Source: Cordylochernes scorpioides
Taxonomy: Eukaryota > Arthropoda > Arachnida > Pseudoscorpiones > Chernetidae
Reading direction: 5' to 3'
Assembly: GCA_030710605.1 (NCBI GenBank)
Contig: CP092870.1
Span: 16,344,684 to 16,408,683 of the forward strand
Length of the DNA: 64,000 bases
A model generated the notes under the pieces. That model did no database searches and was not told the DNA's origin. It was given only the letters and a program-made list of their open reading frames with translations. This document shows positions 3,226 through 57,567 of this stretch, piece after piece. The translations under genes and the position numbers were made by a program. Position 1 is the first letter of the stretch. Each line of letters starts with the position of its first letter.

Positions 3226-5150
3226 AGTGGTGTCCCACCCCCATGTCTGCTGTCATACCCACATGTCCCAACCATAATCTTCTGTCCCACTCACATGTCT
3301 GCTGTTACATCCACATTTCTGCTGTCCCACCCCCATGTCCCAACCATAATCTGCTGTCCCACTCACATGTCTGCTGTTACATCCACATTTCTGCTGTCCC
3401 ACCCCCATGTCCCAACCATAATCTGCTGTCCCACCCACATGTCCCAACCATAATCTGCTGTCCCACTCACATGTCTGCTGTTACATCCACATTTCTGCTG
3501 TCCCACCCCCATGTCCCAACCATAATCTGCTGTCCCACTCACATGTCTGCTGTCCCACCCCCATGTCCCAACCATAATCTGCTGTCCCACTCACATGTCT
3601 GCTGTTACATCCACATTTCTGCTGTCCCACCCCCATGTCCCAACCATAATCTGCTGTCCCACCCACATGTCCCAACCATAATCTGCTGTCCCACTCACAT
3701 GTCTGCTGTTACATCCACATTTCTGCTGTCCCACCCCCATGTCCCAACCATAATCTGCTGTCCCACTCACATGTCTGCTGTCCCACCCACATGTCCCAAC
3801 CATAATCTGCTGTCCCACTCACATGTCTGCTGTCCCACCCACATGTCCCAACCATAATCTGCTGTCCCACTCACATGTCTGCTGTCCCACCCACATGTCC
3901 CAACCATAATCTGCTGTCCCACTCACATGTCTGCTGTCCCACCCACATGTCCCAACCATAATCTGCTGTCCCACTCACATGTCTGCTGTCCCACCCACAT
4001 GTCCCAACCATAATCTGCTGTCCCACTCACATGTCCCACCCATAATCTGGTGTCCCACTCACATGTCTGCTGTCCCACCCCCATGTCCCACCCATAATCT
4101 CTGCTGTCCCACCCACATGTCCCACCCATAATCTCTGCTGTCCCACCCACATGTCCCACCCATAATCTGGTGTCCCACTCACATGTCTGCTGTCCCACCC
4201 CCATGTCCCACCCATAATCTCTGCTGTCCCACCCACATGTCCCACCCATAATCTCTGCTGTCCCACCCACATGTCCCACCCATAATCTGGTGTCCCACTC
4301 ACATGTCTGCTGTCCCACCCCCATGTCCCACCCATAATCTCTGCTGTCCCACCCACATGTCCCACCCATAATCTGCTGTCCCACTCACATGTCTGCTGTC
4401 CCACCCCCATGTCCCACCCATAATCTCTGCTGTCCCACCCACATGTCCCACCCATAATCTCTGCTGTCCCACCCACATGTCCCAACCATAATCTGCTGTC
4501 CCACTCACATGTCTGCTGTCCCACCCACATGTCCCAACCATAATCTGCTGTCCCACTCACATGTCTGCTGTCCCACCCACATGTCCCAACCATAATCTGC
4601 TGTCCCACTCACATGTCCCACCCATAATCTGGTGTCCCACTCACATGTCTGCTGTCCCACCCCCATGTCCCACCCATAATCTCTGCTGTCCCACCCACAT
4701 GTCCCACCCATAATCTCTGCTGTCCCACCCACATGTCCCACCCATAATCTGGTGTCCCACTCACATGTCTGCTGTCCCACCCCCATGTCCCACCCATAAT
4801 CTCTGCTGTCCCACCCACATGTCCCACCCATAATCTCTGCTGTCCCACCCACATGTCCCACCCATAATCTGGTGTCCCACTCACATGTCTGCTGTCCCAC
4901 CCCCATGTCCCACCCATAATCTCTGCTGTCCCACCCATAATCTGCTGTCCCACTCACATGTCTGCTGTCCCACCCCCATGTCCCACCCATAATCTCTGCT
5001 GTCCCACCCACATGTCCCACCCATAATCTCTGCTGTCCCACCCACATGTCCCACCCATAATCTCTGCTGTCCCACCCACATGTCCCACCCATAATCTCTG
5101 CTGTCACACTCACATTTCTGCTGTCACACCCCCATGTCCCACCCATATGT
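3226..5150. repeat. Intron-filling minisatellite, about 1.9 kb
   Basis: Tandem, higher-order array built from short blocks such as CTGCTGTCCCACCCACATG, TCCCAACCATAAT and TCCCACTCACATGT, in at least two unit variants (CCAACCATAATCTGCTG in the first part, CCACCCATAATCTCTGCTG in the second). Variants alternate in longer super-repeats. It occupies essentially the whole intron between coiled-coil exons 4 and 5. Open frames on both strands across it result from repeat unit lengths and lack of stops and are not genes. Confidence 0.97.
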
Positions 5151-36175: not shown

Positions 36176-38651
36176 TATATTCTTCCCTGTAGCAACGTGA
36201 CAAAGGTAGTCAGGGTGTCAGCCTATCTCTATATTCTCTCCTGTAACAACGGTGCCCAGGGTGTCAGCCTATCTCTATATTCTCTCTTGTAACAATGGTG
36301 CCCAGGGTGTCAGCCTATCTCTATATTCTCTCCTGTAACAACGGTGCCCAGGGTGTCAGCCTATCTCTATATTCTCTCTTGTAACAACGGTGCCCAGGGT
36401 GTCAGCCTATCTCTATATTCTCTCCTGTAACTACGGTGCCCAGGATGTCAGCCTATCTCTATATTCTCTCCTGTAACAACGGTGCCCAGGGTGTCAGCCT
36501 ATCTCTATATTCTCTCCTGTAACAACGGTGCCCAGGGTGTCAGCCTATCTCTATATTCTCTCCTGTAACAACGGTGCCCAGGGTGTCAGCCTATCTCTAT
36601 ATTCTCTCTTGTAACAACGGTGCCCAGGGTGTCAGCCTATCTCTATATTCTCTCCTGTAACAACGGTGCCCAGGGTGTCAGCCTATCTCTATATTCTCTC
36701 CTGTAACAACGGTGCCCAGGGTGTCAGCCTATCTCTATATTCTCTCTTGTAACAACGGTGCCCAGGGTGTCAGCCTATCTCTATATTCTCTCCTGTAACA
36801 ACGGTGCCCAGGGTGTCAGCCTATCTCTATATTCTCTCTTGTAACAACGGTGCCCAGGGTGTCAGCCTATCTCTATATTCTCTCTTGTAACAATGGTGCC
36901 CAGGGTGTCAGCCTATCTCTATATTCTCTCCTGTAACAACGGTGCCCAGGGTGTCAGCCTATCTCTATATTCTCTCTTGTAACAACGGTGCCCAGGGTGT
37001 CAGCCTATCTCTATATTCTCTCCTGTAACTACGGTGCCCAGGATGTCAGCCTATCTCTATATTCTCTCCTGTAACAACGGTGCCCAGGGTGTCAGCCTAT
37101 CTCTATATTCTCTCCTGTAACAACGGTGCCCAGGGTGTCAGCCTATCTCTATATTCTCTCTTGTAACAACGGTGCCCAGGGTGTCAGCCTATCTCTATAT
37201 TCTCTCCCGTAACAATGTAAAAATGGTACCCAGGGTGTCAGCCTATCTCTATATTCTCTCCCGTAACAACGTAACAATGATACACAGGGTGTCAGCATAT
37301 CTCTATATTCTCTCCTGTAACAACGCAACAATGACACACAGGGTGTCAGCCTATCTCTATATTCTCTCCCGTAACAACGTAACAATGATACACAGGGTGT
37401 CAGCATATCTCAATATTCTCTCCTGTAACAACGCAACAATGACACACAGGGTGTCAGCATATCTCTATATTCTCTCCTGTAACAACGTAACAATGATACA
37501 CAGGGTGTCAGTTCATCTCTATATTCTCTTCTGTAACAATGTAAAAATGGTACCCAGGCTGTCAGCCTATCTCTATATTCTCTCCCGTAACAATGTAAAA
37601 ATCGTACCCAGGGTGTCAGCCTATCTCTATATTCTCTCCCGTAACAATGTAAAAATCGTACCCAGGGTGTCAGCCTATCTCTATATTCTCTCCCGTAACA
37701 ATGTAAAAATCGTACCCAGGGTGTCAGCCTATCTCTATATTCTCTCCCGTAACAATGTAAAAATCGTACCCAGGGTGTCAGCCTATCTCTATATTCTCTC
37801 CCGTAACAATGTAAAAATGGTTCCCAGGGTGTCAGCCTATCTCTATATTCTCTCCCGTAACAATGTAAAAATGGTTCCCAGGGTGTCAGCCTATCTCTAT
37901 ATTCATTTCCGTAACAACGTAACAATGGTACCCAGAGTGTCAGCCTATCTATATTCTCTCCTGTAACAACGGTACCCAGGGTGTCAGCCTATCTCTATAT
38001 TCTCTCCCGTAACAATGTAAAAATGGTTCCCAGGGTGTCAGCCTATCTCTATATTCTCTCGTAACAGCGGAACAAAGGTACCCAGGGTGTCAGCCTATCT
38101 CTATATTCTCTCCCGTAACAATGTAAAAATGGTACCCAGGGTGTCAGCCTATCTCGATATTATCTCCTGTAACAACGTAACAAAGGTACCCAGGGTGTCA
38201 GCCTATCTCGATATTATCTCCTGTAACAACGTAACAAAGGTAGCCAGGGTGTCAGCCCTCCTATCTCTATATTTTCTCCTGTAACAACGTAAAAAGTGAC
38301 CGGAATGTCACACTCTAACTATATTTTGTAAATCAGTCAGTATCGCCTTATTCTGTACTCCCCTATCCAAGCACTAGGAGACTGCGATATCCAGTACCGT
38401 AGTCATCATTTAACCCGGTAACCTCAATACAGTGCGTTTTAGATAGTAGTGTTTATCAATTAAATATCTTGAACCTTTCTCATAAGCTAATATGAGTATT
38501 GCACTTGAACCACCTAGCATCTTTAGTTCAATTAAGACCCCGCATATTTTGATGTAGGTGAGTTAATGTATTATAAAACCTCAATATATTTTGAATTACA
38601 ACTAGTGATAAGATAGGAAGCCAACACGCTGCAAATGGTGTGTTTCCTCAC

Positions 38652-45841: not shown

Positions 45842-47146
45842 CAAGGTATGTCCCATAAGTTCCCGGACTGGGTCCATAAAAAAAATAAATAAATAAAAAA
45901 TGTAAATGAATTTGACTGTTTATTATAGAAATAATATCTGGCTACACGGTGGTACCAATATCGAGGCGGTACGTGCACGCGCCCCAAAGTTATTCTAATT
46001 TATTTAAAGGTTACACATAGCGCTGCGGCGATTTTACGATGGAACGAAAATTGAAGCAGAGGATTTGCATAGAATTTTGTGTGAAACTTCAAATATCAGC
46101 AACCGAAACTTTTTAAATGCTTAATAAAGCATTCCCCAAAGAGAACAATTGTTTTTGAATGGCATTCTAGATTTAAAGCTGGCAGAATTTCCATTAAAGA
46201 TGATCTTCGTCAAGGACGCCCAAAAATTTCAAAGGACTGATGAAAATGTGCAAAAAATCACCGATTTGATAAAAGAAAATCCTCGAACCACTTTGCTGGA
46301 GCTAGAGCAAGACACAGGCATCTCTAAAACAACGATTGGAAGGATCGTAACCAAATCAAAAAGACTCCTGCAAAATTCATCCCAAGATTCCTCACTAATG
46401 AGCAAAAACTGTGTCGGCTTGCAACCTGTGAGGACATGTTGGAAATGACAAGAACGGATCCGGAATGGAAAGACAAGATAATCACAGGCTACGAGACATG
46501 GGTCTATGGCTATGATACTGAAACCAAGCATCAATCTGCCGAGTGGAGATGTCAGGGTGAGCTTAGACCCAAAAAATCCAGAATATTGAAATCCAGAAAC
46601 AAGGTGTTGCTGGTCGCTTTTTTTGGATAAAAAGGGCATTTTTCATCACGAGTATCTTCCTGCAGGCCAAACAGTTATCAAGGATATGTATTTGGGCATT
46701 CTTCGCCGTCTAAGGGAAGCGATTCGAAAAAAAAGGCCAGAAAAATGGACTAATGGTGGCTAGATCCTACACCATGACAATGCTCGCCCTCACACAGCGC
46801 ACTTGATGACTAGCTTTTTGGCGAAAAACGGGACACAAATCCTACTTCAACCACCCTATTTCCCAGACATCGCACCAAATGACTTTTTCCTGTTCCCCAA
46901 ACTTAAAGCAGTTCTAAAAGGAAGACATTTTGACACCAGGGATGACATAATAGAAAAATCGCCGTTAGCATTGAAGAGCATTCCAAAAGAGGCTTATAAA
47001 AACTGTTTCGACAATTGGGAGAAACGATGGCGCTGGTGCGTTGAAGCAAGGGGGGATTACTTTGAAAAGTTTTAATAAAAAAATTTAAAAAAAATCTCAC
47101 CTTTTTTTTTATGGACCCAGTCCGGGAACTTATGGGACATACCTTG
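45842..47146 (+). mobile_element. mariner transposon, complete ends
   Basis: About 43-bp inverted ends CAAGGTATGTCCCATAAGTT ... CCCGGACTGGGTCCATAAAA and reverse complement, flanked by TA (45840-45841, 47147-47148). 1305 bp, the standard mariner size. Inserted in the 3' LTR of the gypsy relic. Confidence 0.93.
46039..47075 (+). pseudogene. mariner transposase, frame-broken
   Basis: N-terminal MERKLKQRICIEFCVKLQIS, HTH (LLELEQDTGISKTTIGRIV), then the core: TGYETWVYGYDTETK, HHDNARPHTAHL and PPYFPDIAPNDFFLFPKLK. The second and third catalytic Asp are 34 residues apart (DD34D). The first catalytic Asp of the G-D-E-T-W motif is Tyr here, so the enzyme would be dead even without the several frameshifts and stops. 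Confidence 0.9.
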
Positions 47147-47265: not shown

Positions 47266-47281
47266 ACACACACACACACAC
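47266..47281. repeat. (AC)8 microsatellite, left target flank
   Basis: Sixteen bases of AC immediately before the 5' end of the LINE. The matching tract lies at 52606-52628. Confidence 0.95.
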
Positions 47282-47460
47282 TCAGGCGTGCGGCCACGCT
47301 TTCGCGAGCTCCGCCGTTTTCGCCTTTTGAGTGCGTGTAAAGGGCGCTTAGTCTGGCAAGTGTGATATTGGCAGAAAGCCCAGGATGTGCTGAAAAAGTG
47401 TCTGAAAGGCCCAGCATCCTGCTACCAACAGGCGAGGAATTATCGCCAAAAGACATAAAC

Positions 47461-49005
47461 ATGAAGAAAATAATTGAAATTTCTTCTGAAAATCAAAAGT
47501 ATGCAAATTCGCCGGCAGGCGACTTGCATGTAAATCCGGCCGCCGCGCGTGGTGACGTCACGGCTCCGAAGACTGCTGCTACGACCAGCGCAACTCTAGC
47601 CAGCCCGGCCTCGCTCAACTGGGCCGACAGCGAGATGGCGGAGGCGGACGCTGACGAAGGCTACACCGTCGTGAAGAGAAAGAAAAGGCGCCTTGTTTCA
47701 CCGTCACCTGACCACGCCGCTAAGCAGCCAAGCAGGCCTGCTGAGAAGCGCGGCTCCCAGCAGCAGAAGCGACCTACAGGGCCGAGGTCAATGCCGCCCC
47801 AGGAAATCAAGGCGACGCGCGCCAACATCGCCGACGCCAAGGCGAGGCAGAACTCTACCAACCACGAGAACTACATCTTCGTGGAGCTGTGCCCTGACAT
47901 CCCGGACTACTACTACCTCCAGGCAATAGGCAACCTGGTCGGAGGGCCAAGGAAAATAACCCAATTCAACAGGATGAACGGCCACTACGTCGTGGGCCTC
48001 GCGGGCAAGGACCTTGCGAGCCGTCTGGTGGAGGTGGGCCTGGACATCGAGGGCACCCACCTGAAGGTCTTCCCCTACCGAAAAAGGGCAGAGCGCATCA
48101 TCATCGCTAATCTGCCCGGCTTTGTCGAGGACAGCGCCATCGTGGAGCCCCTGCGCAACTTCGGCACCGTGACCTCCATCGCCCCCATCATGATCAAGAT
48201 GGGGGAATACACCTTCAACGACGGCCGCCGGGAGGCGTTCATCCTGCTCCGCGAGGGCGTGAGGCTGGAGTCGCTGCCCACCCGTCTGACCATTAAGTCC
48301 AAGGGAGACACCCTGTCAGCCTTCCTCTCCTTTGGCATCAAGTGTTCCAAGTGCGGCAAGCACGGCCACCGCAGAGCCAACTGCCCAGCGCTCGCCAGGC
48401 AAGGGAACGGCAGCCCCAGGCAAGCAGCGTCTCCCACCGACGCAAGGCCTCGCCCCCCTCCTCCTCCTCCTCAGCAACCAAGGAAGCCGGCACCTGCGCC
48501 CGCAACACCGGCGTCCCCTGTCCAACCGGCGAAGTCTTCAACTGAGGCTCCAGTGACCCCCTCGGCACACCATCCTGCCGAACCGAGGGATCTTGCCCAG
48601 CCCGCCCCTGTCGCCCTCCCTGCTCCTCTGACTGCCCCGCGGCCCCCCGAGCCCGAGACCTTTCCGCTCGACATTGAGATGTCGGAGGAGGAGCTAACCT
48701 CAACTCCCTCCGCGTCTCCCAGGGGAAAACCCGCATTCGTCCAGCTGCAGGAGCACCTCAAGCAGTTCCCCAACCTCTCCATCGACTGGGACGGGCTGCC
48801 CGGTATAGACCGCGAGGACGCACAGCGGCTACTCACCTCTAAAGGAAAAATGGAGAAGCGAGCGCCCTCGCTGTCAAAAGCACAGGTCGCCGCCCTCGAC
48901 CAGGTGGCCGAAACCATCAAGGCCTCGATCCCAGACTCCAACCACACCATCCGCAAGACCCTCCAGAAGACCAAGGGGGCGATGCATAAGGGACGGCAAC
49001 AATGA
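47461..49005 (+). CDS. LINE ORF1 (gag-like, CCHC zinc knuckle)
   Basis: Start taken at the first ATG (MKKIIEISSENQ); an upstream GTG frame extends to 47362. About 514 residues: acidic/Ser-rich N-terminus, a Lys/Arg patch (TVVKRKKRRL), a central globular region (ENYIFVELCPDIPDYYYLQA ... LPGFVEDSAIVEPLRNFGTV) of the type found in Tx1/R1 ORF1 proteins, one CCHC knuckle (CSKCGKHGHRRANC, C-x2-C-x4-H-x4-C), a long Pro/Ala-rich linker and a C-terminal conserved-looking block. Known role: RNA-binding chaperone of the LINE RNP. The stop overlaps the ORF2 start (ATGA at 49002-49005). Confidence 0.88.
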   Translation: MKKIIEISSENQKYANSPAGDLHVNPAAARGDVTAPKTAATTSATLASPASLNWADSEMAEADADEGYTVVKRKKRRLVSPSPDHAAKQPSRPAEKRGSQQQKRPTGPRSMPPQEIKATRANIADAKARQNSTNHENYIFVELCPDIPDYYYLQAIGNLVGGPRKITQFNRMNGHYVVGLAGKDLASRLVEVGLDIEGTHLKVFPYRKRAERIIIANLPGFVEDSAIVEPLRNFGTVTSIAPIMIKMGEYTFNDGRREAFILLREGVRLESLPTRLTIKSKGDTLSAFLSFGIKCSKCGKHGHRRANCPALARQGNGSPRQAASPTDARPRPPPPPPQQPRKPAPAPATPASPVQPAKSSTEAPVTPSAHHPAEPRDLAQPAPVALPAPLTAPRPPEPETFPLDIEMSEEELTSTPSASPRGKPAFVQLQEHLKQFPNLSIDWDGLPGIDREDAQRLLTSKGKMEKRAPSLSKAQVAALDQVAETIKASIPDSNHTIRKTLQKTKGAMHKGRQQ

Positions 49006-52000
49006 GCTACCGTCTCGCCAGCATCAACGCGCGAGGGCTCGCCACTCGGGGGAGGAGCCTTGCCCTTTGTCATCTCCTCAGACAACATCACGTGGACATC
49101 GCGTTTGTCCAGGAGACAAACGCCTTTCATCTCGGCAGCGGCCAAGACCTCTGCCTCGGCTACAGCGCTGTTATATTGGCCCATCCCGTAGCCATCTCGG
49201 GATCCGGACTCGCCTGCGTCTTCGGACCAGGCGTCGCCGTGCTACAACAGCGTATCCTGTGGCCGGGCCACATCGCCTTGGCAACAATAGATGTCCGCGG
49301 CGAGGAGATGACGGCCATCGCCGTTCATCTGGCGCATGAACCCCGGGAGAGAAACCGGCAACTGGAGCTCCTGGCGGCGACAGCGGCACAGGAAGAGGAG
49401 GGGGCCTGCTGGATCATCGGCGACTTTAACATCAGGGATCGGGGCCCCTCATCATCATCATCATCATCGGATGCCCTCGCCGCTCTTCTGGACCTGGCCG
49501 CGCTGGTCGACGTGGCCACCCAGTTCGACGCCGCCCACCTGCCCACCAGAGTCTCCATGCACGGCGACCAAGTAGAATCCAACCGCCTGGACCGGATCTT
49601 CGTCCCTGCTGGAGTCCTGGATCGCGTGTCCATCTACGCGACCAGCCACTACCACCTCTCGGACCACCGCCTCGTGCTGCTCCAGGTGGGCCCGCCCACC
49701 ACCGCCGTCTCCTCCCCCACCCAGCCTCGCTTGGCCGCGATGCTCCGCTCGGGCCTTGCTCTCGAACATCTGGCTGGCTACATCCGGGAGTTGGAGGAAG
49801 ACACAGCGCACGATGACGACGACGGGACCTTCTGGGATAGGTGGACCTCCATCAAGGCGGGGCTGCTGGCGGAGGCCAGATCCCTGCACGACCCACGCCA
49901 CGCTGCCAACGACAGCTACGTCTACAGGGCGAGACGTTACATCGCGGCGCAGCTCGAGGCCTCCTCCATCCGGGCCGACTACCCAACGCTGCCGGACCTA
50001 GCACGCGCCATCCGCCTCCGACGCCCGGTCAGCGTCATCAGGGACGAGCAGGATAACATCATCGAGGGCCCCGAGCTTCGGCGGAGGGCGTTCGCGACCT
50101 TCCAGCCCCGCTTCGCCCGTCCCACCAGCGATACAGCTGCGGGAGCTGCCTTCATCGCCAGCAGCGCGTCCACCACCACCCGCGAGCTGAGTGAGGAGGA
50201 CCCGCTCCACCGGCCGGACATCAGCCCCAGCGAGATCGCCAACGCTATCGAGCACCTCCCTCGCGGAAAGGCCCCCGGCTGGGATGGCTTGCCGTGCGAG
50301 CTCCTCGTCGCCTTCAGCGAGGACTTCTTCGCGGAAGCTCTAGCCCGGGTGTTCGCGGCATCACGGCTCCGCGGTGCCCTGCCTCCGTCGACGCGGCGCA
50401 GCTCCATCTGCCTCGTGCCCAAGGCCCGCGGAGGTCGCGGCCTTGACTGCTACAGGCCCGTCGCGCTGCCCTCGGCCGACTACAGGGTCCTGGCCGCCAT
50501 CCTTCACCGGCGACTCAAGCCCCACCTGCGGACCCTTGTGCCGGAATGCCAGACTTACGCCGTCCCCGGGAGGTCCCCGTCATGGAACATCGCCATGGTG
50601 ACGGACGCCGTCGAGGAGGCCAACGCCCTGGGCTCGCCGCTGGCCGTCATGGGCGTAGACCTGGAGTCCGCCTTTGACTCACTAGACCGCGGCTTCTTGG
50701 AGTCCCTGCTAACGTCCCTCCGCCTCCCGCCGGCCTTCAGGGCCTGGATTAACATCCTCTACGCCGGGGCGGACGCCACCATCCGGGCCGGAGGCTTCTA
50801 CACCACCGCCTTCCCCCTCCTCAACGGCCTAAGACAGGGTTGCGCCGTGAGTGCCGCACTCTTCAGCATCGCCACGGGGCCGCTACTACGTCGCCTGGAG
50901 TTGACCCTCGGCGTGGGCAATGTCACCGCCTACGCCGACGACATCGTCCTCCTGTTCCATCGCGACGAAGACTTCGAGCGGGTGGCGACTGTCTTCGAAG
51001 ACTATAAGCAGGCCTCCGGAGTTGGCGTGAACCTCCGGAAGAGCGCTGGCCTCTGGTGCGGCGCCTGGCGCAACCGCGGCGACTCCCCTCTCGGCGCCTC
51101 CTGGTCGACCACCTCCATCAGGGTCCTCGGGCTCGACATCGCCCCCAGGAGCACCGTCGCCCACCGGGAGCAGCATCTCCTGGCCCTCCTGGAGAATGCA
51201 TGCCGCAAATGGACGCCCTTCACCCGCGGCCTCTCCCTCGTCGGGCGAGCAAGAGCGGCGAACACGCTGGTGGGCTCTGTCATCCAGCACCACCTGCATG
51301 GCTACCTACCATCACCCCCAACCATCGCCAAGCTGCAGGCCCGACTGGCGAGATTCGTCTGGGGACAGGACCACACGGCGTGGCTTCCCGCCGATGTCAT
51401 GGCGAGGCCAGTTGCCATCGGAGGCCTCGGCCTCCTCGACCTCGCGACCCAGCTCCAGCTCGCCTGCCTCAAGGGGGTGCAGGTCGCGCTCCGCGGGGGC
51501 AGAAATGCCTTCAGCTGGCTGGTAGAAAGCGGTGAGGCCTGGATCCACCCTCCACCGGACGGCACCCGTCTCCAGCCCCGCCGTCTCCGGCTGCTGAAGC
51601 TGTGGGAGGAGGCCTCCAACATCCTGGGCCTCAACCATCGGGCGGTCCCCACGGCTCAGCTACTGGACCTCAACATCATCGGCGGCTGCCGGTTCCTCCG
51701 CCCTCCCGACCTCCTGGCCCCTGCCCGCTGGCGCGGAGCCCGAGTCCGGGACCTTCTTGCGGAGGGCCACCTCACCGCCCGACCTACGCGCTCGGCCCTG
51801 GCTGACGCCGCGGCCCTGGGCGCCTTCTGTCGGAGGCTGACCTCCGAGAACGCCGTGGGCTTCGGGGCGGAGTCTGCACCCTCATCTAGCTCTTTAGCTG
51901 CGGCCGTGGTGCTGCGAGGGACGGCTACGCCGTTCCTCAACTGCCTCACGACCCGCTCGGCCCGACGGGCCCTGGATCGCCCGCGCCTCGCCGCCACGCC

Positions 52001-52478
52001 CATCTCAAGGTTCACCTCGAGATGGTTGCCCACCATCGGTCCACTTCCATCTAGGATCGACTGGGCCTCGCTGCGGCGCTGCGCCTACTCGGGCCACGAG
52101 GCCGACGCGGCCCTCAAGTTGGCCCTCCACGCCCTGCCCCATCCGGCCCATCCTGCCTCGGTCGGCCCCTCCTGTCCTGCCTGCGGGTCCATCGACCGCT
52201 CCCTCGGCCACCGTTACTGGTGCTGCCGTTCCATCAGGCCTCTCATCAGAGAGGCCTTCAACATCATAGGGCGGCCCCCTGACCTGCAGGCTTGGATCTT
52301 CGGCGGGTCCGGCCTTGAGGACGACGCCCTTTCCATCTTGGCGTCGGCAAAGTTGCGAATTTATCGCTACTTTGTACAGGTTGGGCTCGGAGAAGCAGTG
52401 GAAGACCCGCTCATCGCCTGGTCCAGGACCCTCCAGCGCCGAGGTTTTCTTCCTCCATCTCCCATCACCATCTTGTAA
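49002..52478 (+). CDS. LINE ORF2 (APE endonuclease + reverse transcriptase)
   Basis: 1158 codons, intact. Residues 1-225: apurinic-type endonuclease with N9 (INARGL), E38 (QETN), D141/N143 (IGDFN), D197 (NRLDRIF) and S220-D221-H222. A TCA microsatellite encodes Ser 150-156. Residues about 410-720: RT with GKAPGWDGLP, YRPVAL, VPGRS (521-525), D553 (MGVDLESAFD), RQGCAVS (611) and YADD at 644-647. C-terminal zinc-like CPACGSIDRSLGHRYWCC near residue 1060. All catalytic residues are present. Function: nicks the target and copies the LINE RNA by target-primed reverse transcription. Confidence 0.93.
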   Translation: MSYRLASINARGLATRGRSLALCHLLRQHHVDIAFVQETNAFHLGSGQDLCLGYSAVILAHPVAISGSGLACVFGPGVAVLQQRILWPGHIALATIDVRGEEMTAIAVHLAHEPRERNRQLELLAATAAQEEEGACWIIGDFNIRDRGPSSSSSSSDALAALLDLAALVDVATQFDAAHLPTRVSMHGDQVESNRLDRIFVPAGVLDRVSIYATSHYHLSDHRLVLLQVGPPTTAVSSPTQPRLAAMLRSGLALEHLAGYIRELEEDTAHDDDDGTFWDRWTSIKAGLLAEARSLHDPRHAANDSYVYRARRYIAAQLEASSIRADYPTLPDLARAIRLRRPVSVIRDEQDNIIEGPELRRRAFATFQPRFARPTSDTAAGAAFIASSASTTTRELSEEDPLHRPDISPSEIANAIEHLPRGKAPGWDGLPCELLVAFSEDFFAEALARVFAASRLRGALPPSTRRSSICLVPKARGGRGLDCYRPVALPSADYRVLAAILHRRLKPHLRTLVPECQTYAVPGRSPSWNIAMVTDAVEEANALGSPLAVMGVDLESAFDSLDRGFLESLLTSLRLPPAFRAWINILYAGADATIRAGGFYTTAFPLLNGLRQGCAVSAALFSIATGPLLRRLELTLGVGNVTAYADDIVLLFHRDEDFERVATVFEDYKQASGVGVNLRKSAGLWCGAWRNRGDSPLGASWSTTSIRVLGLDIAPRSTVAHREQHLLALLENACRKWTPFTRGLSLVGRARAANTLVGSVIQHHLHGYLPSPPTIAKLQARLARFVWGQDHTAWLPADVMARPVAIGGLGLLDLATQLQLACLKGVQVALRGGRNAFSWLVESGEAWIHPPPDGTRLQPRRLRLLKLWEEASNILGLNHRAVPTAQLLDLNIIGGCRFLRPPDLLAPARWRGARVRDLLAEGHLTARPTRSALADAAALGAFCRRLTSENAVGFGAESAPSSSSLAAAVVLRGTATPFLNCLTTRSARRALDRPRLAATPISRFTSRWLPTIGPLPSRIDWASLRRCAYSGHEADAALKLALHALPHPAHPASVGPSCPACGSIDRSLGHRYWCCRSIRPLIREAFNIIGRPPDLQAWIFGGSGLEDDALSILASAKLRIYRYFVQVGLGEAVEDPLIAWSRTLQRRGFLPPSPITIL

Positions 52479-52605
52479 AATTTGTTTCATATATGTATAT
52501 ATTTTCTCTTCTCTTCTCTCTTCTTATTTTCTTTTTCTCTCCCTATGATTGAAAATATGTAATATTGTCTAAGATGACAATAATTTTTTTTTAATTGTCA
52601 ATTGT

Positions 52606-52628
52606 CACACACACACACACACACACAC
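52606..52628. repeat. (CA)n microsatellite, right target flank
   Basis: 23 bases of CA directly after the LINE 3' UTR, then unique DNA (TAAATACCCCACC). Confidence 0.95.
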
Positions 52629-53254
52629 TAAATACCCCACCTGCTTTAAACTTTGATGTAATAAAGAAAGAGATATTCCAGGTGCTATCTAAAATACAGT
52701 TGCCTTATTATTGACTTGTCTAAACTTGTAGAATGGTCGAAACACGCTCTAAAAAGTTACAGAACATGTCTGAGCAGAAGATAAAGGTTGATGAACCTAC
52801 CAGACCACAACCCGGTGCAACAATATGGACCAATCGAATGTTTACGTAAGCCAGCCTCCCATGACGGTGCAACAATATGGTTGAATTTTGTGAAGAACGG
52901 AATATTACTTCCCCCAAGAGAAAATTATTTAATTGAAATAAATAATACAAAAACATTAAAGAACATTTTTTAAAAGCTGAAGAACAAGATAATGATAATA
53001 TTTCATTATATCTTTTAAATTGAAGAGACGCTCCCTTTAATAATATGCCATCAGTTTATTATACTAGGAGAATTCTGGGATTCCTAGAAAATCTACTCAA
53101 TATAATTACACACTCATATAAATGATGAACAGGATCACCCTGTAATTAAAAAGGCATATATTGGATCATAATATGACTTTTCAATTAAAGATCTATTTAT
53201 GGATTACTCTATTAAGAACATATAATGTGTTGTGATATATAGTGGCAGAGATAC
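52629..53254. other. Intron DNA without recognised gene
   Basis: About 0.6 kb between LINE and MDM1-like exon. A short direct repeat GGTGCAACAATATGG occurs at 52814 and 52865. No coding support. Confidence 0.4.
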
Positions 53255-53800: not shown

Positions 53801-53892
53801 ATACGAAAGAAAATTAAAAAGGTAAATTTTTAATCAAAAGATTATATATTTCAAATTTAAATAACTCATTTAGAAACATCTTTATTTTTATA

Positions 53893-56800
53893 ATGGCAAA
53901 TATACATAGATTTGAAAAATATTCTGGCAGTAAGAATAATATAAAAATTGAAAGTTGGATTAAGTTGTATGAAGTAGAAAATTTAAAAGCAAACGATGAA
54001 GAAAAAATACACAATCTTATCTACTATTTAGCAGATGAAGCCTTAGAATTTTTTGCTGATGAAATTCTTACAAATGCACATATAAAAAAATGGGAAACTG
54101 TAAAAGATAAACTCATTGCCAGATTAAAGCCTTGCACATATAGTCCCATTGTATTAGCATCTAGCAGAAAGCTCCTTGCAAGTGAAACTGTGGAGACTTA
54201 TTTTAAAGAAAAAATGGACTTACTGAATCAAACATCCTTGAAAAAGGAAGAGAAAATACAGCTACTAACAGATGGGCTACCTTTGAATTGGAGGGATGTG
54301 TTTGCAGCAGCACAACCTGCAGATCCAACCAAATGGATACAAGTTGCACTTTCTGTTGAGCATAACAAGCAACAAAGTAAGCTAAGAAATTTGTTTAAAC
54401 CCAAAGTATGCACTCTATCTCAACAGGAAAGATCAGCTTCAAATTGCCCATTTTTCTGCCCAATTTGCATGAAGAAAAGAATTAAAGTGAAACATTGGTT
54501 GAATGAATGTCCTGATTATGACCCAAATTATAAAACAGAAAGATCATCTAAAAATACACAACCAAAACAATTCATTACAACAGTCACTGAATCAACCACA
54601 AGTAATGAAACAAACAAAGTAACTTGCTTATCAACTAACAATCCTCCTAATAAATTGATAGACTTTAAAATTTTTGTCAACAAACATCCTTTACAAGCCT
54701 TCATGGACACAGGTGCTACCATATCTTTAATAAGTCAAAATTTAATAAAAAGTTTGAATTTACATCCTTTAATAGATTCTCCCATGCAAATTCAACAAGC
54801 TAACTCATTAACCAAAACTTTGGGATATGTTCATGTAAATTTGCAAATTCATAATAAAACTAGAAAGGTCAAACTTCATGTAATGCCTAATTTAAAATTC
54901 CAGCTACTCATTGGCTTGGATATTGCAGAAGACTTTGAACTTATTGTTGACACTAAAGATAAAACAGTCTACACTAAGCAATCAGCAGAAATGGCACTTG
55001 TTTGCACAACCTTTAATCATTTGCAAAAACCTAACCAGGATGAATTGAATACATTATTACAGCAAAATGAGCAAATTTTCAGTCAACATCAAACAGATAT
55101 AGGAAGAATCTCCATTCAGCACAATATAGTCACCAAAGAACATTTGCCTATAAGTTTAAGACCATATAGAAGACCCATCTCTGAATATGAGAAAATTTCC
55201 GAACAAGTCAAAGAAATGATTAAGAAAGGATTAATTAAAGAGTCATCCTCCCCATGGTCTTTTCCAGTTGTTTTAGTGCAAAAAAAAGATGGGACCAATA
55301 GACTTTGTGTAGACTACAGGGAACTCAATAAAATTACAATTGATGATAAACAACCCTTACCACTTTTGCAAGATATTTTTGATAGACTTCATGGAGCAAA
55401 GTATTTCACAACACTAGATGTGGCTTGGGGATACTGGCATGTTCAAATGCATCCTGAGTCAGTTCCCAAAACAGCCTTTGTCACCAATGATGGACATTAT
55501 GAATTTTTGGTTATGCCCTTTGGACTCAAAAATGCAGCATCAACATTTCACAAAATCATCCAGCAAGTGATAGGAACTCTTTTATGGAAAGGAGTATGTG
55601 TTTTCCAAGATGATATCATCATTTATTCCTCATCCTTTTCCCAGCATATGAACCTGATAAAGCAGGTATTTGAAAAATTGCTTGAATACAACATCAAGCT
55701 TAAGTTCAACAAATGCTCATTTGCACAGTCAGAGGTCAAATACTTAGGCCATATCATTGGTCACAATAAAGTAAATCCTGATCCTGATAAAATCAAAGCT
55801 GTTCAAGACTTTCCGCAACCAACAACAGTTAAAGGAATCAGAAGATTCATTGGCTTGGCAAATTTCTACCGGAAATTCATTCCAAGATTTGCAGAGATTG
55901 CCACCCCTCTTACAAACCTGACACAGAAAAATAAATTATTCTCGTGGACACCTCAAGTTGATAAATCCTTTATAGAATTAAAAGCAGCTTTAACATCAGA
56001 ACCAATTCTTACCACTTACAACCCAGAAGTACCTTGCAAACTATATACAGACGCATCAGCAATTGGAATAGCAGGAATACTAAGTCAAGAAATTGATTCA
56101 ACAGAACATGTAATATCATACTATTCCAAAAAGCTTCTTAAACACCAACAGAACTACTCAGCTTATGAACTGGAATGCTATGCTGTCATCCAAGCAATAG
56201 ATTATTTTGAGGTGTATCTGGAAAACAAGCCCTTCCAAGTTATTACGGATCACTCAGCCTTACAGTGGCTACTCAATCTCAAAAATCCAAAATCTAAATT
56301 TTTCAGGTGGCTAGTCAATTTATCAACTAAAACCTTTACAATCACACACAGATCTGGAAACAAACTGACTCATGTAGATGCATTATCAAGAGCCCCAGTA
56401 CTAAATGTTTCCATTTTCGAGCTACAACAACATCAAAGACAGGCAGATCTCAGCTTCATTGAAGACCCTCAAGATCATCAAAACACAGTGATGGTCAAGA
56501 AGAGAGGACTACTCAGGGCTGTGGTGCCTGCTTCTTTTAAAGAACATGTTCTGAAGGAATATCATGATAACATGAGTCACCCATCCATGAACAAGACAGT
56601 CAAATTAATAGTTCCTTTATTTTGGTGGTCAGACATGGTACAGGAAATTAAATCTTATGTGAGATCATGCAAGACATGTCAACTGACTAAATCATCTAAC
56701 CAACCAACTCTAGGACAACTAATAATTCCAGACACAGAATTACAACCAGCTCAAGTAATAAGTGCAGATACAATAGTTATGGGAACATCAGCTGAAAAGA

Positions 56801-57567
56801 CAAAGCACAAGTACATCCAAGTGTTCATTGATCATCTTACAAGATATGTTTGGGCATTTCCCACTATCAAAAACACAGCTCAAGCAACGCTACAATGTTT
56901 CAACAGAATCCTTCAAGTCTCGCTACCCATAAAACATATTATCACTGACAATGGAAAGAACTTTAATTCCAAGGAATTCAAAAGGTGTTTGAAAGTTCAT
57001 AACATCAAACAAACTTTCACCACACCATACCACCCCCAGAGTAATGGAATGTGCGAAAAGGTTAACGGAACAATCATGACCAAATTAAGAACGGCCTTGC
57101 TTGATAAACCGAAAGTGAAATGGAGCACACTTTTGCCCAAGGTCATTACTGACTACAACAACACCCCTCATGACGTAACAGGTTTTCCGCCATCTTTTCT
57201 ACTTTTTGGTTACAATGTGCAGCCACAATTTGCTGATAACCCCTCAACCTCGGTAGAAGATGCTAGAAAACTGGCTATAAAAAGAACTCAACATCATCGT
57301 GATATTTCCAAAAGAAGACATGATTCAAGGCATCCCGACATTGAATTTAAAGTTGGAGATCTCGTTCTTAAAAGAATTCCCTACAATGATCCGAGGCTAA
57401 TTAAAACAGCTCCCAAATACGAAGGACCATTCCAAGTTTTGAGAAGATTGTCTAAAGTGACTTACGAACTCTCTACAACGGATCAAGACAACCCACCAAG
57501 AAATCCCACAGGAGATCCTATAAAGGCTCACATCTCTCAATTAAAGTCATTTATTCTCCGTGAATAA
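53893..57567 (+). CDS. Ty3/gypsy Gag-Pol polyprotein, intact
   Basis: 1224 residues in one frame. Gag 1-210 ending in a zinc-like C189-x2-C192 ... H201-x4-C206; aspartic protease with D272-T-G-A; RT at about 450-620 with SSPWSFPVVLVQKKDG, TTLDVAWGYW (catalytic Asp) and FQDD at 571-574 in place of the usual YxDD; RNase H at about 715-830 (LYTDASAIGIAGIL, ITDHSALQWL); integrase zinc (HVLKEYHDNMSHPS; CKTCQ), core D in ISADTIV, D in ITDNGKNF and E in CEKVNG with 35 residues between the last two; C-terminal chromatin-binding-type tail. No Gag/Pol frameshift or stop. Confidence 0.95.
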   Translation: MANIHRFEKYSGSKNNIKIESWIKLYEVENLKANDEEKIHNLIYYLADEALEFFADEILTNAHIKKWETVKDKLIARLKPCTYSPIVLASSRKLLASETVETYFKEKMDLLNQTSLKKEEKIQLLTDGLPLNWRDVFAAAQPADPTKWIQVALSVEHNKQQSKLRNLFKPKVCTLSQQERSASNCPFFCPICMKKRIKVKHWLNECPDYDPNYKTERSSKNTQPKQFITTVTESTTSNETNKVTCLSTNNPPNKLIDFKIFVNKHPLQAFMDTGATISLISQNLIKSLNLHPLIDSPMQIQQANSLTKTLGYVHVNLQIHNKTRKVKLHVMPNLKFQLLIGLDIAEDFELIVDTKDKTVYTKQSAEMALVCTTFNHLQKPNQDELNTLLQQNEQIFSQHQTDIGRISIQHNIVTKEHLPISLRPYRRPISEYEKISEQVKEMIKKGLIKESSSPWSFPVVLVQKKDGTNRLCVDYRELNKITIDDKQPLPLLQDIFDRLHGAKYFTTLDVAWGYWHVQMHPESVPKTAFVTNDGHYEFLVMPFGLKNAASTFHKIIQQVIGTLLWKGVCVFQDDIIIYSSSFSQHMNLIKQVFEKLLEYNIKLKFNKCSFAQSEVKYLGHIIGHNKVNPDPDKIKAVQDFPQPTTVKGIRRFIGLANFYRKFIPRFAEIATPLTNLTQKNKLFSWTPQVDKSFIELKAALTSEPILTTYNPEVPCKLYTDASAIGIAGILSQEIDSTEHVISYYSKKLLKHQQNYSAYELECYAVIQAIDYFEVYLENKPFQVITDHSALQWLLNLKNPKSKFFRWLVNLSTKTFTITHRSGNKLTHVDALSRAPVLNVSIFELQQHQRQADLSFIEDPQDHQNTVMVKKRGLLRAVVPASFKEHVLKEYHDNMSHPSMNKTVKLIVPLFWWSDMVQEIKSYVRSCKTCQLTKSSNQPTLGQLIIPDTELQPAQVISADTIVMGTSAEKTKHKYIQVFIDHLTRYVWAFPTIKNTAQATLQCFNRILQVSLPIKHIITDNGKNFNSKEFKRCLKVHNIKQTFTTPYHPQSNGMCEKVNGTIMTKLRTALLDKPKVKWSTLLPKVITDYNNTPHDVTGFPPSFLLFGYNVQPQFADNPSTSVEDARKLAIKRTQHHRDISKRRHDSRHPDIEFKVGDLVLKRIPYNDPRLIKTAPKYEGPFQVLRRLSKVTYELSTTDQDNPPRNPTGDPIKAHISQLKSFILRE

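Follow-up and report, generated by a model that had tools for sequence, protein, structure and literature searches.

A young, probably active L1/Tx1-group LINE of Cordylochernes scorpioides that probably carries AC repeats at both ends and inserts at short AC-rich sites

The window, i.e., the whole stretch of 64,000 nucleotides of Cordylochernes scorpioides DNA that was analyzed, contains an intact, GC-rich LINE of the APE type with two ORFs on the forward strand. By direct reading, the element starts with TCAGGCG at 47282 and finishes with AATTGTC at 52606, between a 5' AC tract of 16 nt, (AC)8 (47266 to 47281), and a 3' AC tract of 22 nt, (AC)11 (52607 to 52628). Immediately before the 3' tract, this copy has no poly(A) tail. 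The original prediction of a two-ORF LINE placed exactly between AC runs and devoid of poly(A) was thus confirmed. The 5' untranslated region (UTR; 47282 to 47460) begins with TCAGGCGTGCGGCCACGC, and related families begin similarly (TCGGGCG, TCGAGCG, and TCGGCCG). ORF1 (47461 to 49005, counted from the first ATG at approximately 47461, in a frame that is open from 47341) encodes a proline-rich stretch and one CCHC zinc knuckle, CSKCGKHGHRRANC, which was below the cut-off in Pfam. ORF2 (49002 to 52478; 1,158 amino acids) overlaps ORF1 by ATGA and encodes an APE-type endonuclease (Exo_endo_phos, about amino acids 7 to 222; 3.4e-10), a reverse transcriptase (RT; RVT_1, amino acids 481 to 712; 7e-29), and a C-terminal Cys/His motif, CPACGSIDRSLGHRYWCC, which was named by eye. 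Both ORFs are unbroken in the window copy, in line with the prediction, and its ORF2 translation contains QET, GDFN, SDH, and YADD, which we take to be the catalytic residues of the APE and RT domains. The endonuclease alone gave no match against the PDB up to an E value of 1, and the structure predictions for the endonuclease and for the middle of ORF1 were too poor for use (mean pLDDT of 33 and 38, respectively).

The 3' UTR (52479 to 52606) ends with a 6-bp hairpin (ATTGTC-loop-GACAAT), an AATAA stretch, and AATTGTC(A)nTTGTC, in which the A run is variable. Across 10 tails, 98.3% of the 60 hairpin cells were paired, with one compensatory pair, found in two related tails. In a shuffle test, 6 of 500 shuffles reached the observed score for pairing and covariation together; because 178 of 500 reached the number of covarying pairs, the case that these tail sequences make for a conserved 3' hairpin structure is modest. 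The A run between AATTGTC and TTGTC ranged from 1 to 15 (15 in L010 and 2 in the window), and there was no second unit in the tail of L112. The A run before the 3' AC tract may be a poly(A) remnant or a slippage tract.

The element interrupts an interspersed repeat, the left part of which extends up to 47265 and the right part of which (52629 to 52829, forward strand) continues from the 3' AC tract with TAAATACCCC. By eye, the 3' part of a mariner-like transposase gene (46800 to 47100) lies just upstream of this repeat, and a 1,249-amino-acid open frame (53818 to 57567), parts of which resemble protease, RT, RNase H, and integrase, suggests a Gypsy-like LTR retrotransposon. Two large minisatellite arrays, with TCTGCTGTCCCACCCACA-type units and a 46-bp unit, occupy positions 3231 to 5147 and 36211 to 38296.

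The APE domain lies N-terminal to the RT within ORF2, as in APE-type LINEs of the L1 group. Against the PDB, the RT scored 117 bits with human L1 ORF2p over approximately 480 residues and 53 bits with R2 proteins, while a jockey-like family of the same genome (L049 to L068; GVPQGS type) had no preference (61 bits with L1 versus 58 bits with R2). In an RT tree of four taxa, the element joined L1, apart from R2 and the jockey-like RT, with 91% bootstrap support. Since its RT matches L1 best and pairs with L1 in the tree, the element most likely belongs to the L1/Tx1 group. Its nearness to the L1 group rather than to the jockey-like RT, both in PDB bit scores and in this tree, is in line with the original prediction that the RT motifs favor Tx1 over R1. 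A VPGR motif is a sign of Tx1. ORF2 reads LRQGC and groups apart from the jockey-like family of the same genome, which speaks indirectly against an RT of the R1/jockey/I type. The R1 clade (Mino/Waldo-like), which the AC flanks had suggested, was rejected on RT affinity as judged via the jockey-like family rather than an R1 reference; a 28S pattern meant to locate rDNA and R1/R2 anchors gave 0 matches. The NeSL clade (Togen-like) was likewise rejected, as an APE domain is present where that clade needs a restriction-like endonuclease instead. The jockey-like LINE itself, recognized by eye, is abundant: its RT search gave 118,061 first-look candidates in the genome, and L049 to L068 had open frames of up to 891 amino acids and were 95 to 99% identical to L049.

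The exact 25-base 5' end of the element, TCRRGCGTGCGGCCACGCTTTCGCG, occurred 518 times in the 2.62-Gb genome that carries the window (253 plus 265; control, 0), which puts the number of copies of this end at 518 or more. When the first 535 bases were used as the query, 2,185 first-look candidates were found, and all 40 that were scored were 98 to 100% identical. Apart from the window copy, 9 of the 20 fetched copies had both ORFs unbroken over the window length, 14 of the 20 had an unbroken ORF1, and one further copy (L018) had an ORF2 that matched as far as residue 1150. The original prediction that the element could be active was strengthened accordingly: with 9 of 20 other copies unbroken in both ORFs, recent activity is likely. 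The median dN/dS of ORF2 was 0.16, at a median dS of 0.094, among 45 pairs from the nine intact ORF2s and that of the window, a set picked for intactness and 5'-end similarity. This value reflects purifying selection in the source lineages and is consistent with recent activity, and judging from these sequences the LINE is probably young and still active. Neighboring elements within the same arrays matched the window copy at 83 to 99%; some were more diverged, with starts such as TCGGCCG, and some shared the tail AATTGTC(A)nTTGTC. No relatives were found in collections of genome contigs and viral contigs, and neither these nor the PDB yielded a Tx1 sequence. Six contig ends of this genome, read over 400 bases each, showed no telomere-like array, with no more than a single unit of TTAGG, TTAGGG, or TCAGG in a run. 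One copy (L022, 4858 to 5646) was broken in ORF1 by an insert of approximately 790 bases beside a TATATATA stretch.

An AC tract preceded all 40 of the 5' ends that were read, which were the 40 scored in the 5'-end search (the window, L009 to L028, and L103 to L121). At least 4 nt of AC adjoined 39 of 40 3' ends (the window, 19 of L009 to L028, and L029 to L048; L023 was left out, with its 3' end outside the locus), the exception being L035, which continues into ACAAACACATACGC-type DNA. The comparison of flanks therefore bore out the expectation that other copies are AC flanked too. Beyond the two tracts of the LINE, the 64-kb window held only one other (AC)6 run (mean of 0.00 in shuffles), so the placement of AC at the element ends is not due to chance. 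Such flanks would be expected of a microsatellite-specific LINE that cuts inside a pre-existing (AC)n array, the two tracts being the split halves of that array, and AC/TG-specific LINEs do exist, as the available portions of two reports describe for Mino (PMC3124438) and Togen (PMC4640811). The lengths of the tracts speak differently, as random splitting would be expected to leave 5' tracts of less uniform length. Among the isolated copies (24 of the 40 5' ends; the other 16 lay directly after the 3' end of another copy or related family), the 5' tract had a median length of 18 nt, with an interquartile range of 16 to 20 nt and a range of 12 to 30 nt. The 3' tract at isolated ends (n = 28) had a median length of 18.5 nt and a range of 1 to 149 nt, a much wider spread (Fligner P = 2e-4, with the 24 5' values). 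Single deviations at the 5' end were one substitution within the AC tract in L111 and the loss of the first two element bases in L106. In the first 100 listed copies of the 25-base 5' end, a comparison that does not select on AC, the AC tract reached at least 12 nt in 80 and at least 24 nt in 10, and the remaining 20 had no pure 12-nt tract. The corresponding whole-genome totals were 436 (at least 12 nt) and 96 (at least 24 nt); as shorter patterns were used for these counts, neither is a strict fraction of 518.

Downstream of the elements, 12 of 40 3' ends lay directly before another element. Eight of the 40 3' flanks went on into AC-rich or interrupted AC DNA, as the split-array explanation would have it: the 3' ends of L029, L030, L035, and L036 entered a degenerate AC-rich array within 1 to 9 nt, and those of L019, L031, L037, and L040 entered an interrupted AC tract. 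This DNA is probably target DNA, and in L103 the 5' tract, too, is preceded by AC-rich DNA. AC-rich arrays thus do serve as targets, in addition to short sites. Because adjoining copies differed from one another, many arrays did not arise by simple duplication of a single copy; insertion into AC tracts left behind by earlier copies would explain them.

The right flank of the window element gave 1,798 first-look candidates, of which 40 were scored, and 27 of the 39 other matches listed for this target repeat were fetched. All 27 were unoccupied paralogues that read GATACAC|TGAATAC, GATACAC|TAAATAC, or close variants, and none held a microsatellite. In the 26 of these sites scored by script, the longest AC run was 4 to 6 nt; the empty site of L093, GAAACAC|TGAATAC, was read by eye and was not anchored by the script. 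The most distant variants were those of L077 and L079, with GATACACAGCTAGC, that of L081, and that of L084, with GAAATAC, and the empty sites of L097, L101, and L102 also had the TAAATACCCC of the window's right side. In five of the seven longer paralogous loci (L076, L077, L079, L080, and L082), the left flank of the window copy, over at least 82 nt, was contiguous with the right flank, and these five are true empty sites; only 34 nt of the left flank was in place in L078 and none in L081. The first four nucleotides of the window's 5' AC tract (ACAC) match the empty target, and the rest of the tract most likely came with the insertion.

A second target repeat behaved similarly. In the occupied copies (L027, L108, L113, and L118), the AC on the 5' side measured 15 to 18 nt, and all six empty copies that were fetched read GACACACATAC, with a 7-nt AC run. 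The tracts of L027 and L118 start CAGAC|CACAC, in a phase other than that of the target, although these two insertions may be one event that was duplicated. For a third target repeat (L015 and L116), one empty relative inside L020 read ACAGACAAACAGACAGACAGACATTC, with no AC array, and for a fourth, one empty relative in L081 already had a 10-nt AC run, the maximum among all empty sites seen. The insertions lie at AC-rich sites, as might be expected of a Tx1-clade LINE with a specific, repeated target, but a short ACAC suffices. In addition, insertions in L027, L044, L048, L037, L046, L047, and L020 recurred at AC/ACAG-rich repeat ends that continue ACATTCA(A/T)TTTTATATATATAGA, and such repeats look like favored targets.

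These empty sites do not support one claim of the original prediction, namely, that the element had inserted into a pre-existing (AC)n microsatellite. For the window copy and the second target, all 27 and all 6 fetched sites, respectively, held just 4 to 7 nt of AC, and it is therefore most likely that the microsatellite belongs to the inserted DNA. A rare expanded AC allele may have been present at each target, against the 27 and 6 empty copies that were seen. Overall, we consider it unlikely that the flanking tracts are the split halves of an older array.

Given the short AC runs at the empty sites and the narrow length range of the 5' tract, the AC tracts are most likely carried along by the element. 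Alternatively, they could be absent from the RNA and be made at integration, when the GTGT primer and the second-strand primer slip on AC microhomology, or afterward, as an ACAC seed expands. In favor of this route, ACAC seeds are present at the target sites and the length of the 3' tract is highly variable. Against it, the 5' tract has a uniform length, and the tracts of L027 and L118 are not in phase with the seed; later expansion, moreover, would hardly yield 12 to 23 nt so regularly in copies that are 98 to 100% alike at the 5' end. Formation of the tracts in one of these ways therefore appears rather unlikely. A truncated copy bears on the same question. Four copies were probed for 5' truncation, of which two extended to about window position 47,770 and a third had an internal deletion, with no match at the farthest probe. 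The copy of L044 was 5' truncated near window position 49,900, and its junction, ...AAAGATCAT|TGCCAGCGACAGC, is without AC. This sole truncated copy whose 5' junction was read (in locus L159; n = 1) would conform to the prediction for a 5' tract borne by the RNA, although the sequence to its left is not the flank expected from the target repeat, and it may therefore be rearranged.

On balance, we think it probable that the element is a young member of the L1/Tx1 group of APE-type LINEs, that AC repeats form part of it at either end, and that it inserts at short AC-rich sites. The proposed model draws directly on the AC tracts at both ends, the short AC-rich empty sites of two recurrent targets, the narrow 5' tract, the arrays, and the intact, constrained ORFs. 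At a short AC-rich site, for example ACAC, the endonuclease would nick the GT strand, and the ...GTGT 3' end thus freed would pair with the (AC)n stretch in which the element RNA ends. Reverse transcription would start at this GTGT/(AC)n pairing, as target-primed reverse transcription, and slippage during it would give the variable 3' AC tract. The RNA itself presumably starts with approximately eight AC units, so that a full-length cDNA would end in (GT)n; pairing of this end with the target's ACAC on the opposite strand could then seal the 5' junction. Two new AC tracts would result from each insertion and would act as further targets, giving rise to head-to-tail arrays. The wider reading, in which an RNA with target-like dinucleotide repeats at both ends needs no more than an ACAC seed and each insertion plants a pair of AC microsatellites, so that the element spreads its own landing sites and would drive both the birth of microsatellites and the growth of head-to-tail LINE arrays, is put forward tentatively, with a chance that we place somewhat short of even.

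A LINE between simple repeats is easily labeled microsatellite specific from its flanks alone, as in the original prediction. Here the empty-site test points the opposite way: the microsatellite seems to be a product of the element. If this is true, one source of AC microsatellites is directly visible, and other LINEs labeled microsatellite specific merit the same empty-site test. The system is testable, with many copies, several of them intact, recurrent target repeats, and precise junctions.

Among known LINEs, Keno, Mutsu, and Dewa belong to the Tx1 clade, and Kibi and Koshi are microsatellite specific. LINEs of the Tx1 clade (Keno, Mutsu, Dewa, and Tx1-1_ACar) target repeated sequences; from what the available sources describe, these are RNA genes, a tRNA spacer, or telomeres, and they include telomeric short tandem repeats. 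Tx1-1_ACar is telomeric (PMC10088271). The APE-type LINEs with target specificity are assigned to the Tx1 and R1 clades in the available text of PMC4640811. In the literature searched, from which subscription journals mostly fell outside, we recognized, among the papers listed, no account of an L1/Tx1-group LINE with AC at both ends. Mino shares insertion into AC repeats with the window LINE, but it is described as an R1-clade LINE in the accessible part of PMC3124438, whereas the RT of the window LINE groups with L1, away from the jockey-like GVPQGS-type RT. Togen, a fish LINE specific for (TG)n microsatellites, is related to NeSL, and elements of that clade encode a restriction-like endonuclease, according to the portion available of PMC4640811, whereas the window LINE has an APE domain before its RT. 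Dong elements, of the R2 group, also insert into microsatellites, as stated in the available section of PMC3636483. The fungal FoTeR/MoTeR LINEs resemble the window LINE in having target-like repeats at both junctions, with a telomeric motif at the 5' junction and 3 to 7 telomeric units at the 3' end; as far as the accessible text of PMC12857005 describes them, they are telomeric and encode a restriction-like endonuclease, whereas the window LINE combines an APE domain with AC repeats at dispersed sites.
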